Shown piece after piece: positions 35,381 through 45,570 of a DNA stretch of 64,000 nt. The DNA lies in assembly GCF_017355785.1 (NCBI RefSeq), contig NZ_JAFEWE010000015.1:62001-126000 (forward strand). The letters run 5' to 3'. The notes below the pieces were generated by a model. It was given only the letters and a program-made list of their open reading frames with translations. It had not been told where the DNA came from and made no database searches. Each line of letters opens with the position of its first letter. Within the stretch, counting starts at the first letter, position 1. The DNA comes from Desertivirga arenae. GTDB lineage: Bacteria > Bacteroidota > Bacteroidia > Sphingobacteriales > Sphingobacteriaceae. The translations under genes were made by a program, and so were the position numbers.

Positions 35381-38300
35381 CTAAGAACAACCGCCTTGAG
35401 TACCGCAATTCAAACATTTGTAGCAAGTTCCTGAACGAACCATGATATGACCACAGTTAGTACAAGCAGGAGCATCACTTTGACCTCCACCTGAAATATC
35501 AAGAACAGGTTTCAATACTTTATCTGATACCGTCTTTGTTACTTCTATAGCTTGTGGAGCCTGAGGATCATGATTAACGTCTTCATCTGCCATTTGAGGG
35601 TTTCCTAAGATGGCCTTTTGTTCTGTAATCACGTGAACCAGGTCTGTACGATTTAGGTACTCATAACCAAGGATACGGAAGATATAATCAATTATCGAAG
35701 TAGAGCTCTTGATGTTATCATGTCCACTAACCATACCAGATGGCTCGAAACGAGTGAAGGTGAACTTGTCAACAAACTCCTCTAATGGCACACCATACTG
35801 AAGGCCTACAGAGATAGCGATAGCAAAACAGTTCATTAACGAACGGAAGGTTGCACCCTCTTTATGCATATCTACAAAGATCTCACCTAAGGTTCCGTCT
35901 TCGTATTCCCCAGTTCTAACGTATACAGTTTGACCACCTACTGATGCTTTCTGAGTGAATCCACGTCGTTTTGAAGGCATGCTCTTCTTCTCCACCACAG
36001 ATGAAAGCTGACGTTTGAACGTCGTGTCGGTCGACTTCTCAAGGATTGCGCGAGCGGCTTCTAATACTTGCTCAGGTGTAAGATCACTTAGTCTCACATT
36101 AGCTGCTTCTCCAAGTACTTCTTCTACGCTGTCAAGTTTATCTTCTTTAGTATCCGACTTGGTGGATAACGGTTGAGACAGTTTGCAACCGTCACGATAA
36201 AGAGCGTTTGCCTTTAATGCCAATTTCCAGGATAACTCATAGCAATCCTTAATCTCTTCCACCGTTGCTTCATTTGGAAGGTTGATGGTTTTAGAAATTG
36301 CACCAGAAAGGAAAGGCTGGGCAGCAGCCATCATTTTAATGTGGCCGTGAGCGTGGATATACCGAACTCCTTTTGCACCGCACTTGTTAGCACAATCAAA
36401 AATCGGATAGTGCTCTTCCTTCAGGTACGGAGCACCCTCAATAGTCATTGTACCGCAAATGTATTCGTTAGCCTCATTTATTTGCTGACGGCTAAATCCT
36501 ATGGAGCGAAGAAGGTTAAAATCAGGTGCATTATATTGTTCTGATTTAAAGCCCAGGCGTTTCAAACAATCTTCACCTAGAGTCCACTGGTTAAATACGA
36601 AACCGATCTCAAATGCTGCAAGTAAAGATTTGTCGATCTTCTCTAATTCATCCTGAGTAAATCCTTTAGCCGCAAGAGAGTCAAAATTGATATGAGGAGC
36701 ACCTTTTAAAGTTGCATGTCCTTTTGCGTAATTTACAATAGCTTCAATCTCATGCTCTTTATATCCCTGATTCTTCAAGGCAGCAGGAACACCCTGATTA
36801 ATGATCTTGAAGTAACCACCACCTGATAGCTTCTTGAATTTAACCAAAGCAAAATCTGGTTCAATGCCTGTTGTATCGCAGTCCATTACGAGACCGATTG
36901 TTCCGGTAGGAGCAATAACTGTTGTTTGTGCGTTACGGTAACCATATTTTTCTCCTAATTCTAAAGCCTTATCCCATGCATTACATGCAGCCGATAATAA
37001 GTAATCAGGACAATGTTTTTGATCAATTCCCGGAGGCGCAATTTCCAGGCCTTCATAAGCATCCGTAGCATTATAAGCTGCATAGCGATGGTTACGCATC
37101 ACGCGAAGCATATGTTGTTTATTGTCCTCGTAGCGTCTGAAAGTACCCAGCTCTCTAGCCATTTCAGCGGAAGTAGCATAAGCTGTACCTGTCATGATTG
37201 CCGTGATAGCTCCACCTATTGCCCGAGCCTTGTCACTATCATAAGGGATACCTGCAACCATTAGCATAGAACCTAAGTTAGCATATCCTAAACCTAAAGT
37301 TCTGTAATCGTATGATAGTTGAGCAACCTCTTTAGAAGGGAACTGAGCCATAAGAACCGAAATCTCAAGAACCATAGTCCAAACGCGGCAAGCATGCTCG
37401 AAACCTTTCACATCGAAAGTTAATGTATCAGGATTGAAGAAGTGTGCAAGGTTAATGGAGGCCAGGTTACACGCTGTATTGTCCAGGAACATGTACTCAG
37501 AACATGGGTTAGATGCATTGATGCGACCGCCCTCTGGACAAGTATGCCATTCATTGATCGTAGTATCGTATTGCACACCCGGATCAGCGCAGGCCCATGC
37601 AGCAAAGGCAATATCCTGCCATAATTTCTCTGCAGAGATCGACTTCATTGTTTTTCCGGTAGTACGCGCTACCAAATCCCAGCTCGCTCCGGTTTCTAAA
37701 GCTCTGAAGAAAGCATTTGGAATACGAACGGAATTATTTGAGTTCTGGCCAGCAACAGTGCGGTATGCTTCACCTTCGTAGTCTGAAGAATAACCTGCTG
37801 CTATTAAAGCAGCAACCTTACGTTCCTCTTCTACCTTCCAGTTAACAAAGCCTTCTATCTCAGGATGATCAAGGTCTAAACAAACCATTTTGGCTGCACG
37901 ACGAGTGGTACCTCCTGACTTGATAGCACCAGCTGCACGGTCACCTATTTTCAGGAATGACATTAAACCAGAAGAATAACCGCCTCCTGATAATTTTTCA
38001 TTTTCTCCACGAATGGCGGAGAAGTTAGTACCTACACCCGAACCGTATTTAAAGATACGAGCCTCACGAACCCAAAGGTCCATAATGCCACCTTCGTTAA
38101 CTAGATCATCTTCTACTGAAAGAATGAAACAGGCATGAGGTTGAGGACGCTCGTAAGCTGAAGTAGATTTTTTTAGTTCTTCAGTTTCCGGATCTACGTA
38201 ATAGTGTCCCTGTGGTTTACCTGTGATTCCATAAGATGAATGCAAACCAGTATTAAACCACTGAGGCGAATTTGGAGCAGCAAGCTGACCGACAATTGTG

Positions 38301-38683
38301 TATACTAGCTCATCGTAAAATATATCAGCATCAGCTTTTGATGCAAAGTATCCATAACGTACACCCCACTGTCTCCAGCAATCAGCCATACGGTGAGCTA
38401 CCTGTTTTATGCTTTTTTCCGATGAGGTAGTTCCATCTGGCTGTGGAACTCCCGCCTTACGAAAATATTTCTGAGCTAGAATATCTGTAGCTACCTGACT
38501 CCAAGAAGCAGGAACTTCTACGTCGTTCATCTCAAATACTGCATCCCCGGCTGGGTTTCTGATGACAGAAGATCTTTTCTCATATGTGAATAAATCATAA
38601 ACACTCAGTCCTTCTTTCGTGAAGTAACGCGGAATGCTCAAACCGCCACCTTTTCCTGTTTTTGCTGCAGTATTTTTGCCCAT
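35381..38683 (-). CDS. nrdJ: Adenosylcobalamin-dependent (class II) ribonucleotide reductase
   Basis: Reduces ribonucleotides to deoxyribonucleotides using coenzyme B12, independent of oxygen. At 1,100 aa it is the long class II form. Motifs include [46 protein letters not shown] (NPCSE as key) and [20 protein letters not shown]. The C-terminus carries [12 protein letters not shown] then [13 protein letters not shown], a cysteine-rich tail probably used for zinc binding and re-reduction. No class I genes are in the window. Upstream are a good promoter and three DnaA-box-like sites. Confidence 0.95.
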
Positions 38684-38747
38684 GTCCTATAAAAATTAAT
38701 GTTTCTAATGCGTTTCTATGTATAAAAAAACTAAAGGGGTTTTTTAC

Positions 38748-38778
38748 CAAATTTACTCTCCATAATCAGATACCACAA
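38748..38778 (-). promoter_or_regulatory. nrdJ promoter
   Basis: On the minus strand TTG (38776-38778), a 20-nt spacer, then TAAATTTG (38748-38755). It is a near-ideal Bacteroidota -33/-7 pair, giving a leader of about 60 nt. Confidence 0.7.
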
Positions 38779-38784
38779 TTTCGG

Positions 38785-38871
38785 TTTTCCACACCCTTTA
38801 ACTCAAAACGCTTGTAGAAGTTATCCACATTTCTTAATACGCTTAAAAACAGCTTTTTACAATGTGGAAAA
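38785..38871. promoter_or_regulatory. Cluster of three DnaA-box-like sites upstream of nrdJ
   Basis: TTTTCCACA (38785-38793), TTATCCACA (38821-38829) and TGTGGAAAA (38863-38871, the complement of TTTTCCACA) all fit TTWTNCACA. They lie within 87 bp, directly upstream of the nrdJ -33 element. DnaA control of ribonucleotide reductase is known in E. coli nrdAB; here it is inferred. Confidence 0.5.
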
Positions 38872-39136
38872 CTTCAAAAAACATCAAGAAGTTATGTCCT
38901 TTTTATGTCATAACTGCCTGATAATTATTACACTATTTCTACTCTATCCTGTTGGAAAAGCCGCAGCTATTTTGTAGGTAAAGTGTGAATGATATTTACG
39001 ATAGTTTTGGCTGAACTTATCGGGATAACATTACAATAACTTTATCTTCCTTCAGCTTTCGTTAAAGGTTTTACAAGGAAAGCAAAAGGCCCATTGGAAT
39101 AGACCGGAATTCCTGCAATTAAAAGAAGTAGTAGGA

Positions 39137-39200: not shown

Positions 39201-40631
39201 TTAATCCACTATTGTAACGCGTATCATGTTTGTTTTACCTTTCTTCTCAATAGGCATTGCTGCTGTATTGATTACGATCTCACCTGGCATGATGAGGCGC
39301 TCATCGCGAAGAATACGGTTTACATCACTTATTGACTGGTCTGTACTTTCTGCTTTATCGTAGAAAAATCCTCTTACCCCCCAAAGCAAACTTAAAGTAT
39401 TAAGAAGCTTTTTATTATTAGTGAAGATAAAGGTGCTTGCTTTTGGACGGTGACTGGATACTTCAAATGCAGTATAACCGGAAGAAGTCATTGCAACGAT
39501 ACCAACAGCGTTAGTTTTCTCAGATAAATATACAGCTGAGCCACAAACAGCATCAGACATATAGCGTGGAGAACTTTGGTTAAGCTTCTTAGGCGTTTGA
39601 TATGGATAAGCAGTCTCCTCGATATTGGTGATAATCTTAGCCATTGTTTCAATAACGATAAGTGGGAACTCGCCAACAGATGTTTCTCCACTCAACATTA
39701 CCGCATCGGCACCATCAAGTACAGAGTTAGCAACATCGTTCACCTCAGCACGGGTTGGACGAGGAGTTGTAATCATACTCTCCAGCATCTGAGTAGCTAC
39801 GATAACAGGCTTAGATGCCTCGCGACATTTACGTGCAATCATTTTTTGAAGTACTGGAACTTGTTCCATTGGCATCTCAACTCCCAGGTCTCCACGAGCA
39901 ACCATCACACCATCTGTAGCAGCGATAATTGCATCTATGTTGTCAATAGCTTCAGGCTTTTCGATCTTCGCAATAACTCTTGCTGATTTTCCGCTTCTGT
40001 TAATGATTCGTTTTAACTCAACGATATCTTCTGCTGTACGAACAAAGGATAAACCAATCCACTCCACATCATTTTCAAGAACGAACTCCAAATTATTTAA
40101 GTCGTCTTCAGTAAGGGATGGGATAGAAATCTTTGTATTTGGAAGGTTAACACCTTTACGCGACGTTAAAACTCCACCATGAACAACTTCACATACCACT
40201 GTATCTTTGTTATTACTATCTATAACGCGCATTTGCAGTTTTCCATCGTCCAAAAGGATGATTTCACCAGCTCTTACGTCTTTAGGGAAGTTTTGGTAAG
40301 TAATATATATTTGCTTTTCGTCGCCGATCAGCTCGTTGGTTGTAATCTCAATACGGCTTCCGTTTACTAGCTGAATTCCGCCTTCTTTCACTTTTCCAAT
40401 GCGGATCTTCGGACCTTGAAGGTCAGCTAAAATGCCAACATTAGTTTTGTATTGCCTGTTAATTTCCCGGATAGTGTCGATTACTTTCTGGTGATCTTCC
40501 TGACTTCCGTGAGAAAAATTTAACCGGCACACATCTACTCCGGCCTTAATCATGCTCAGCAAGGTTTCCTTTGGAGAAGATGCCGGGCCTAACGTTGCAA
40601 CAATTTTTGTCCTTTTATGAACTTGTCTCAT
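39201..40631 (-). CDS. pyk: Pyruvate kinase
   Basis: Converts phosphoenolpyruvate and ADP to pyruvate and ATP, the last glycolytic step. The 476-aa protein begins RTKIVATLGPASS. It has the LNFSHGSQEDH segment, the active-site IAKIEKPEAIDNID (catalytic Lys), and GVMVARGDLGVEMP with TQMLESM. The C-terminal allosteric domain is present, without the extra PEP-utiliser domain of some Bacillus enzymes. The divergent IPExxxVDY/acpP segment upstream is a common Bacteroidota arrangement. Confidence 0.96.
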   Translation of the reverse strand: MRQVHKRTKIVATLGPASSPKETLLSMIKAGVDVCRLNFSHGSQEDHQKVIDTIREINRQYKTNVGILADLQGPKIRIGKVKEGGIQLVNGSRIEITTNELIGDEKQIYITYQNFPKDVRAGEIILLDDGKLQMRVIDSNNKDTVVCEVVHGGVLTSRKGVNLPNTKISIPSLTEDDLNNLEFVLENDVEWIGLSFVRTAEDIVELKRIINRSGKSARVIAKIEKPEAIDNIDAIIAATDGVMVARGDLGVEMPMEQVPVLQKMIARKCREASKPVIVATQMLESMITTPRPTRAEVNDVANSVLDGADAVMLSGETSVGEFPLIVIETMAKIITNIEETAYPYQTPKKLNQSSPRYMSDAVCGSAVYLSEKTNAVGIVAMTSSGYTAFEVSSHRPKASTFIFTNNKKLLNTLSLLWGVRGFFYDKAESTDQSISDVNRILRDERLIMPGEIVINTAAMPIEKKGKTNMIRVTIVD

Positions 40632-44749: not shown

Positions 44750-45089
44750 TTTGTTAAATTTTATTTTTCATAACAAAGATGCACAGCTAATATGATATTC
44801 TAAAACTTTTTTCACTTTTTATAAATATTTCATAATAAAAAGGCGCAATTAATAGAACTTTTAAAAAATAAAGCTCCAGAGGTTAAAAATTTGAGAATCT
44901 CTTAAAAAAGGAAATACACAGAATTATATAACATCGGGAAGATTTAAGCAAAGAGGTAGGGTTTAAAGATAATTTATGGTAGAGTACATAATAACACGGT
45001 GATTACAAGCTGAGTACCCGTTTTTATTTTTTTTAAATCTATTGTTAACCTTCACTGTTAAGACATAAAATCTCACAAAAACAGAAACT
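44750..45089. other. AT-rich divergent intergenic region
   Basis: About 340 nt between the PepSY-like gene and the repeat lipoprotein, very AT-rich. It must hold two divergent promoters. I could not identify a full TAnnTTTG box; the PepSY-like gene has only CATCTTTG about 30 nt before its start. Confidence 0.5.
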
Positions 45090-45515
45090 ATGAAAACTAA
45101 AATGTTAACAGTGTTGCTTGCCACGGGACTAGGCCTTGCCTCTTGCTCTTCAAGCAAACAAGGAAACACCGGATCTGATTCTGCAACGGCTGATTCAATG
45201 GGTGGAACAACTGTAGACACAACAACTACTGGTACAGGAATGGGTACTACTGACTCAACTGGTACTGGAACGGGTACTGGAACAGGTACGGGTACTGGCA
45301 CTGGCACTGGCACTGACGGTACCGGAACTGGTGGTACTGGTACAGGTACCGGAAATGGCGGTACTGGAACTGGTACTGGTACTGGAACTGGTACTGGTAC
45401 TGGAACTGGAACTGGTTCAGGAACAGGAACTGGTGGTACAGGAACAGGTACAGGTACAGGTTCAGGAACTGGAACTAGTGGTTCAGGAGGCGGAACAACC
45501 ACACCTCGTCCATAA
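45090..45515 (+). CDS. Lipoprotein with long Gly-Thr repeat
   Basis: A 141-aa predicted lipoprotein: signal 1-18, lipobox LASC with C19, then a Ser/Thr/Asp linker. From about residue 46 to 130 it is almost entirely alternating Gly and Thr with a few Ser, Asp, Asn or Met breaks. Synonymous codons vary (GGN ACN), so the sequence is not a pure DNA repeat, although hexamers such as GGTACT and GGAACT recur. The tail ends TTTPRP. No function is known. The opposite strand gives a Val-Pro repeat frame without a start signal and is judged a shadow. Confidence 0.75.
   Translation: MKTKMLTVLLATGLGLASCSSSKQGNTGSDSATADSMGGTTVDTTTTGTGMGTTDSTGTGTGTGTGTGTGTGTGTDGTGTGGTGTGTGNGGTGTGTGTGTGTGTGTGTGSGTGTGGTGTGTGTGSGTGTSGSGGGTTTPRP
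45228..45480. repeat. Degenerate GGNACN hexamer repeat
   Basis: Roughly 40 copies of a six-base unit encode the Gly-Thr tract. Because the unit is two codons, gain or loss by slippage would change the length but not the frame. Confidence 0.8.
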
Positions 45516-45553
45516 AAAAAAAGCCCGACTATTTTTTCTAGCCGGGCTTTTTT
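45514..45553. terminator. Bidirectional terminator
   Basis: A-run plus AGCCCGACTA and TAGCCGGGCT plus T-run (one mismatch) form a stem between the convergent lipoprotein and pdhB genes. Confidence 0.88.
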
Positions 45554-45570
45554 CATAAATATATAAGATC

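Follow-up and report, generated by a model that had tools for sequence, protein, structure and literature searches.

A conserved inverted pair of DnaA-box-like sites at nrdJ promoters of Desertivirga arenae and its relatives, with similar boxes at other ribonucleotide reductase operons

Introduction

The expression of ribonucleotide reductase (RNR) must match replication, and the locus described here raised the question of whether a B12-dependent reductase could be tied to the initiation of replication through DnaA. The window, i.e., the whole stretch of 64,000 nucleotides that was analyzed (G000:C6:62001-126000), belongs to the 6.19 Mb genome of Desertivirga arenae, which is assembled in 43 contigs. 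The DnaA box follows the consensus TTWTNCACA. Three sites of this kind had been noticed directly upstream of the nrdJ gene in a sequence-only reading, which raised DnaA control of the gene and named a replication origin as the alternative.

Results

The nrdJ upstream region

All three boxes were recovered exactly as read, within the AT-rich gap of 517 nt between the start of nrdJ (38683) and the end of pyk (39201), both genes lying on the minus strand. The features of the region were as follows.

35381-38683, minus strand: nrdJ, class II B12-dependent ribonucleotide reductase, 1100 aa (PF08471, E 7.8e-35; PF02867, E 1.5e-128)
38724-38745, minus strand: inverted repeat AAAAAACCCC...GTTTTTTT at the predicted nrdJ transcript start (near 38743), recognized by eye
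38748-38755, minus strand: putative sigma-A -7 box TAAATTTG (TAnnTTTG)
38776-38778, minus strand: putative -33 element, reading TTG on the nrdJ strand and preceding the -7 TTTG by 27 bp
38785-38793, minus strand: proximal DnaA-like box, TTTTCCACA on the plus strand and TGTGGAAAA in the nrdJ direction, exact match
38821-38829, plus strand: middle DnaA-like box, TTATCCACA, not shared by the other genomes compared
38863-38871, minus strand: distal DnaA-like box, the inverted partner, TTTTCCACA in the nrdJ direction, exact match
39201-40631, minus strand: pyk, upstream of nrdJ

The distal and proximal boxes were 78 bp apart, start to start. Another short inverted repeat, AGTTATG...CATAACT, was seen just upstream of the distal box (38890-38896 and 38909-38915). 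Judged by eye, the repeat AAAAAACCCC...GTTTTTTT recurs in many of the nrdJ upstream regions that were aligned and may serve in start-site choice by nucleotide level, as a weak hairpin or as an operator. Elsewhere in the window, a minus-strand open reading frame of 197 aa with Pro-Val repeats (44963-45556) was of low complexity and may not be a gene.

Conservation of the inverted pair

The nrdJ loci of 80 relatives were fetched and, together with the window, gave 81 upstream regions. The closest relatives by name were Pedobacter sp. SYSU D00535 (94% NrdJ identity), Paradesertivirga mongoliensis and Desertivirga xinjiangensis. A pair was counted when TTTTCCACA...TGTGGAAAA was present, or when each of the two boxes departed from TTWT[CG]MACA at no more than one position. 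Such an inverted pair was recorded in 77 of the 81 regions, 67 of which had a spacing of 76-78 bp: 78 bp in 35 regions, 77 bp in 25 and 76 bp in 7. The window was included among the 35 by its 78-bp pair and not via its middle box (42 bp). The remaining spacings were 57 bp in five regions, 45 bp in two, and 67, 86 and 26 bp in one each; the 86-bp (L112) and 26-bp (L113) pairs were probably due to chance, yet they were included in the 77, and all other spacings lay near whole-turn steps when judged by eye. Four regions were without a pair (L063, L080, L099 and L115), of which L063 had 2 bp of upstream DNA and was still counted.

In the other 80 loci, among them the congeners L037 and L038, the stretch between the outer boxes had no TTWTCCACA, and the middle box was left out of the element because it was not conserved. 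Hence, conservation in relatives, on which the proposal of DnaA control had been staked, was observed for the outer two boxes only, and the three sites could not be kept as one unit.

The pair was also searched for more widely, in genome sets that overlapped with the 80 fetched loci and contained related loci. The pattern TTWTCMACA-N67-70-TGTKGAWAA occurred in 66 of 151 genomes of the family and its reversed control in 4 of the 151. In 61 genomes of the family that were also searched for NrdJ, the pair was found in 31 of the 32 genomes with nrdJ, four of these being available as fragments only, and in none of the 29 without it (Fisher 1.4e-16, kinship ignored); the sole nrdJ-bearing genome without the pair was G015. 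In an examined subset of 45 loci that matched the pattern in the 151 genomes, the pair was located at most 700 bp upstream of nrdJ in 42, the exceptions being L149, L151 and L156. Among 25 nrdJ loci from other families, eight had a pair at 45-59 bp, by eye again near whole-turn steps; of the 25, at least L280 and L286 repeat L099 and L106 of the 80-locus set.

Some further occurrences were recorded. Second copies of the pair were seen further upstream of nrdJ at L133:2003-2089 and L139:2849-2936. The same 78-bp pair stood beside genes that looked type I restriction-like by eye, and not beside an RNR gene, at L149:3528-3614 and L151:3527-3613, which come from two genomes of one genus. The genes next to these pairs (262 and 225 aa) had no Pfam match; TAAATTTG was present at the right distance in L149, and TTTG only in L151. 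The 12-mer GAGTTTTCCACA was uninformative within the family, as it occurred in 25 of 60 genomes and many showed matches to the reversed control instead. In G008:C1, from a family genome without nrdJ, ten copies of GAGTTTTCCACA were seen (reversed control 0), of which three lay inside 4.6 kb around 4.18 Mb.

Promoter geometry

TAnnTTTG is the sigma-A -7 box of Flavobacterium psychrophilum and lies at -12 to -5 (PMC9723704). With TAnnTTTG in that position upstream of nrdJ, the proximal box would span about -51 to -43 and adjoin the -33 element. The conserved TTTG was also considered as a -33 box; this was rejected, since it fits the -7 box described in PMC9723704.

Measured from the start of the proximal box, the -7 TTTG was 42-44 bp away in 70 of the 81 nrdJ upstream regions. 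All 70 promoters bearing this unit had the full TAnnTTTG, and 24 of the 70 had a TTG at the putative -33 position, 27 bp before the -7 TTTG. The same distance was measured in 10 of 25 nrdJ loci of other families, leaving 15 without this geometry, in 12 of 15 class Ib nrdHIE loci, and for class Ia nrdBA in 11 of 20 loci within the family and 6 of 14 in other families; the class Ia counts (e.g., 6/14) are weak alone because several candidate boxes occurred per region. The 14 were left after the exclusion of L309, which had another gene order, from 15 other-family class Ia loci. The full TAnnTTTG accompanied the unit at 7 of 10 nrdJ promoters of other families and at all 11 nrdBA promoters of the family; it was absent from the 12 class Ib and the 6 other-family class Ia promoters, where only TTTG was kept.

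As to the background, among 182 boxes in 400 kb of the single-contig relative G135, seven had TTTG at 42-44 bp, one of the seven being that of nrdJ itself. In 839 kb (373 boxes), part of which had been chosen around boxes and three loci of which repeat the nrdJ site, the unit with the full TAnnTTTG was confined to nrdJ of both genomes and one orphan site. The claim that the sites adjoin the nrdJ -33 region was upheld for a conserved regulatory element whose sequence and variation fit DnaA boxes. The inverted pair is, with near certainty, a conserved operator of nrdJ promoters.

Boxes at other reductase classes

L156, one of the three exceptions mentioned above, was a class Ib operon (nrdH-nrdI-nrdE) with the pair upstream, where two proximal boxes stood in tandem, one 79 bp and the other 88 bp from the distal box. 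It originated from G096, three genus-mates of which (G017, G061 and G075) were without nrdJ. At other class Ib loci, the boxes were 88 bp apart, by eye near a whole-turn step (L185 and L189), or formed arrays (L186, L187 and L191). The class Ia nrdBA promoters of several loci, inside and outside the family, had same-strand boxes 18-21 bp apart, and their proximal boxes were often TTTTAAACA or TTTTTAACA, which are poor DnaA boxes. Class Ib and Ia promoters kept the box-to-promoter distance, with other layouts of the partner box. Given this similar distance at class Ib and Ia operons, the module is not restricted to the B12-dependent enzyme.

A cobalamin riboswitch was seen at L164:2237-2371 (contig C34 of G000), where it separates nrdB from the promoter boxes of the class Ia nrdBA operon. 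L182 and L183 have one likewise, and L165 and L156 do not. No cobalamin riboswitch was found in the window and hence none at nrdJ. Presumably, the cell relies on nrdJ when B12 is present.

The protein that reads the boxes

NrdR, the box of which is a longer palindrome, was searched for in 198 genomes of the class. None exceeded the cut-off, the own genome included, when 9 of 14 control genomes did; two sub-threshold matches lay in frames of about 800 aa. An NrdR regulon was rejected, since NrdR was not found in this genome.

DnaA is encoded in this genome and has a normal domain IV, which was aligned (E 8.7e-18) to 1j1v, the structure of E. coli DnaA bound to its box. The nrdJ boxes showed a C/A change at position 6 and an A/T change at position 3. 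The same two changes, besides other letters, were present at the unfiltered sites near -128 and -139 of a candidate oriC, described below. These common substitutions support DnaA as the reader of the nrdJ boxes and are not a proof of it. Taken together, boxes near the promoter, a conserved outer pair and a normal DnaA were found by computation, as would suit a DnaA-regulated RNR promoter.

A dedicated RNR regulator of Bacteroidia, with a motif (about GTTTTCMACA) that merely resembles the DnaA box, would be another reader. At nrdJ, TTTTCCACA was preferred over TTATCCACA, the latter being the sequence that E. coli DnaA prefers, and an additional preference beyond the 9-mer was visible by eye (AG before and CT after). 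The degenerate nrdBA boxes, the near restriction of the full unit to nrdJ in the 839 kb and the lack of a box upstream of dnaA itself in L117 point in the same direction. However, a dedicated regulator would have to share its substitutions with the candidate oriC sites, and a non-palindromic 9-mer that occurs in direct and inverted orientation at variable spacing would rather suit a monomer-binding protein such as DnaA. We therefore consider a dedicated regulator unlikely.

It was also considered that the inverted repeat could be a conserved RNA stem of a leader or riboswitch, given that the two 9-mers could pair at every position in the window and, with the window counted, in 32 of the 67 regions with a spacing of 74-80 bp. 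However, position 6 paired in only 37 of the 67, and the arms varied independently there (Fisher p = 1), for which reason the RNA stem was rejected. Further, the arms lay upstream of the putative promoter, and no Rfam match reached the gathering threshold in the window, those below it being at chance level. We regard a stem as very improbable.

The candidate replication origin

Boxes resembling those of DnaA within an AT-rich gap could also be a replication origin or part of one. The skew evidence on this point was drawn from the window profile and from G135, the own genome being in 43 contigs. There was no skew minimum at 38.8 kb in the window. The sampled skew of G135 had its turning points near 1.1 Mb and within 3.0-3.2 Mb; the lowest cumulative value was near 3.12 Mb, 0.1-0.2 Mb from the nrdJ pair at 3.31 Mb. 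Moreover, the element accompanied RNR genes, class Ib operons included, and boxes were enriched between nadB and nadA near gidA. Thus, the alternative of an origin at nrdJ was abandoned as extremely improbable.

The AT-rich nadB-nadA gap near gidA was located at 3.089 Mb in G135 (C1), far from dnaA, and nadA of the present genome (start 4970) is on contig C38, beside the candidate origin. The 460 bp upstream of nadA were collected from 26 genomes (11,960 bp), with L278 and L279 left out for their partial nadA, and contained 14 TTWTCCACA in 11 genomes against 1 in the reversed control, and 63 TTWTNMACA against 16. Conservation of the candidate oriC sites was loose in the 14 of 26 sequences that were aligned: of five sites, that near -376 was gapped in 7 of the 14, that near -301 was present in the reference only, and one was coding. 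A conserved TTATCCACA near -575 was rejected as an oriC box because it falls in the nadB coding sequence. When 400 kb of G135 were scanned with strict boxes, no clear oriC cluster emerged; relaxing the boxes put the nadB-nadA stretch in first place, with a score that includes the nadB coding box. For the family, the gap between nadB and nadA near gidA is put forward as the candidate chromosomal origin, which it resembles.

Box density and chance

In the whole window, TTWTNCACA was found 10 times against 7.9 expected, so the density was not raised. Genome-wide, TTWTCCACA was counted 138 times against 152 for the reversed control, likewise without an excess. Since neither the window nor the genome was enriched in the motif, the signal lay in the cluster and not in the density. 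Upstream of nrdJ the boxes did exceed the background, with 108 TTWTCCACA sites within 250 bp in the 80 loci and none for the reversed control. The number of such box trios expected by chance in the genome was about 0.00025 at the genome-wide rate, which makes a chance cluster unlikely; an AT-rich gap would raise this number somewhat. Chance clustering of AT-rich 9-mers, favored by the background-level counts genome-wide, is practically negligible in view of the conservation, spacing and link to RNR genes of the outer pair, for which it was refuted, and is still possible for the middle box.

Discussion

It is proposed that the nrdJ upstream operator consists of two inverted DnaA-box-like 9-mers, one of which would abut the -33 region, with the distal one about seven helical turns further upstream. 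The operator probably belongs to a DnaA-responsive promoter module for ribonucleotide reductases, in which DnaA would be the reader. On the proximal box, DnaA would touch RNA polymerase, and the distal box would allow cooperative DnaA binding, so that RNR expression would respond to how much DnaA is present and to which nucleotide it carries, with DnaA standing in for the missing NrdR. As to the sign, our guess is that activation would take place at low DnaA or by ADP-DnaA, and that high ATP-DnaA would lead to less activation or to repression, as for E. coli nrdAB. Of the original suggestion that DnaA controls a B12-dependent RNR, the part that stood was a conserved element fitting DnaA boxes, with DnaA as its likely binder; the control would not be confined to class II.

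The similar box layout in many relatives and at other versions of RNR suggests that the supply of DNA precursors is tied to the start of replication. A wider proposal, for and against which we would speak about equally, is that in Bacteroidia, which lack NrdR, DnaA would be the general regulator of RNR classes Ia, Ib and II, coupling dNTP supply to initiation through one promoter module, kept or re-created when one reductase class is exchanged for another. In this general form, the module comprises a box that stops 6-7 bp short of the -33 element and a helically phased partner box. If this is true, a replication-initiator operator common to several reductase classes would answer how RNR is regulated without NrdR.

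The control of RNR by DnaA is a known idea, and its use in a fixed geometry at class II and Ib genes without NrdR was not found in the open-access literature searched, passages of PMC3019208 and PMC4009431 holding nothing decisive. In PMC8203912, the promoter region of the E. coli class Ia nrdAB operon is described as having three DnaA boxes, with activation by DnaA when its level is low or when it carries ADP, and repression by ATP-DnaA when this is high. The present case is similar in having DnaA boxes within an RNR promoter region. It differs in that the principal case is class II, class Ib and Ia promoters having a similar spacing, in that the box lies at almost the same distance from the promoter from genus to genus, in that NrdR is absent, and in that the boxes were recognized here from sequence alone. 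For B. subtilis and C. crescentus, too, it has been proposed that DnaA regulates RNR genes (PMC8203912); these proposals likewise place DnaA at RNR genes, and no comparable conserved geometry is given in the passages concerned. A cobalamin riboswitch, which acts on RNA, is found at the class Ia operon of this genome and not at nrdJ. As for NrdR, PMC12176259 reports two sites before RNR operons of several classes and binding of the repressor to all three RNR operons in E. coli. The present boxes are like those of NrdR in forming two sites before RNR operons and unlike them in that the motif is a DnaA-like 9-mer, in a genome where NrdR was not found.
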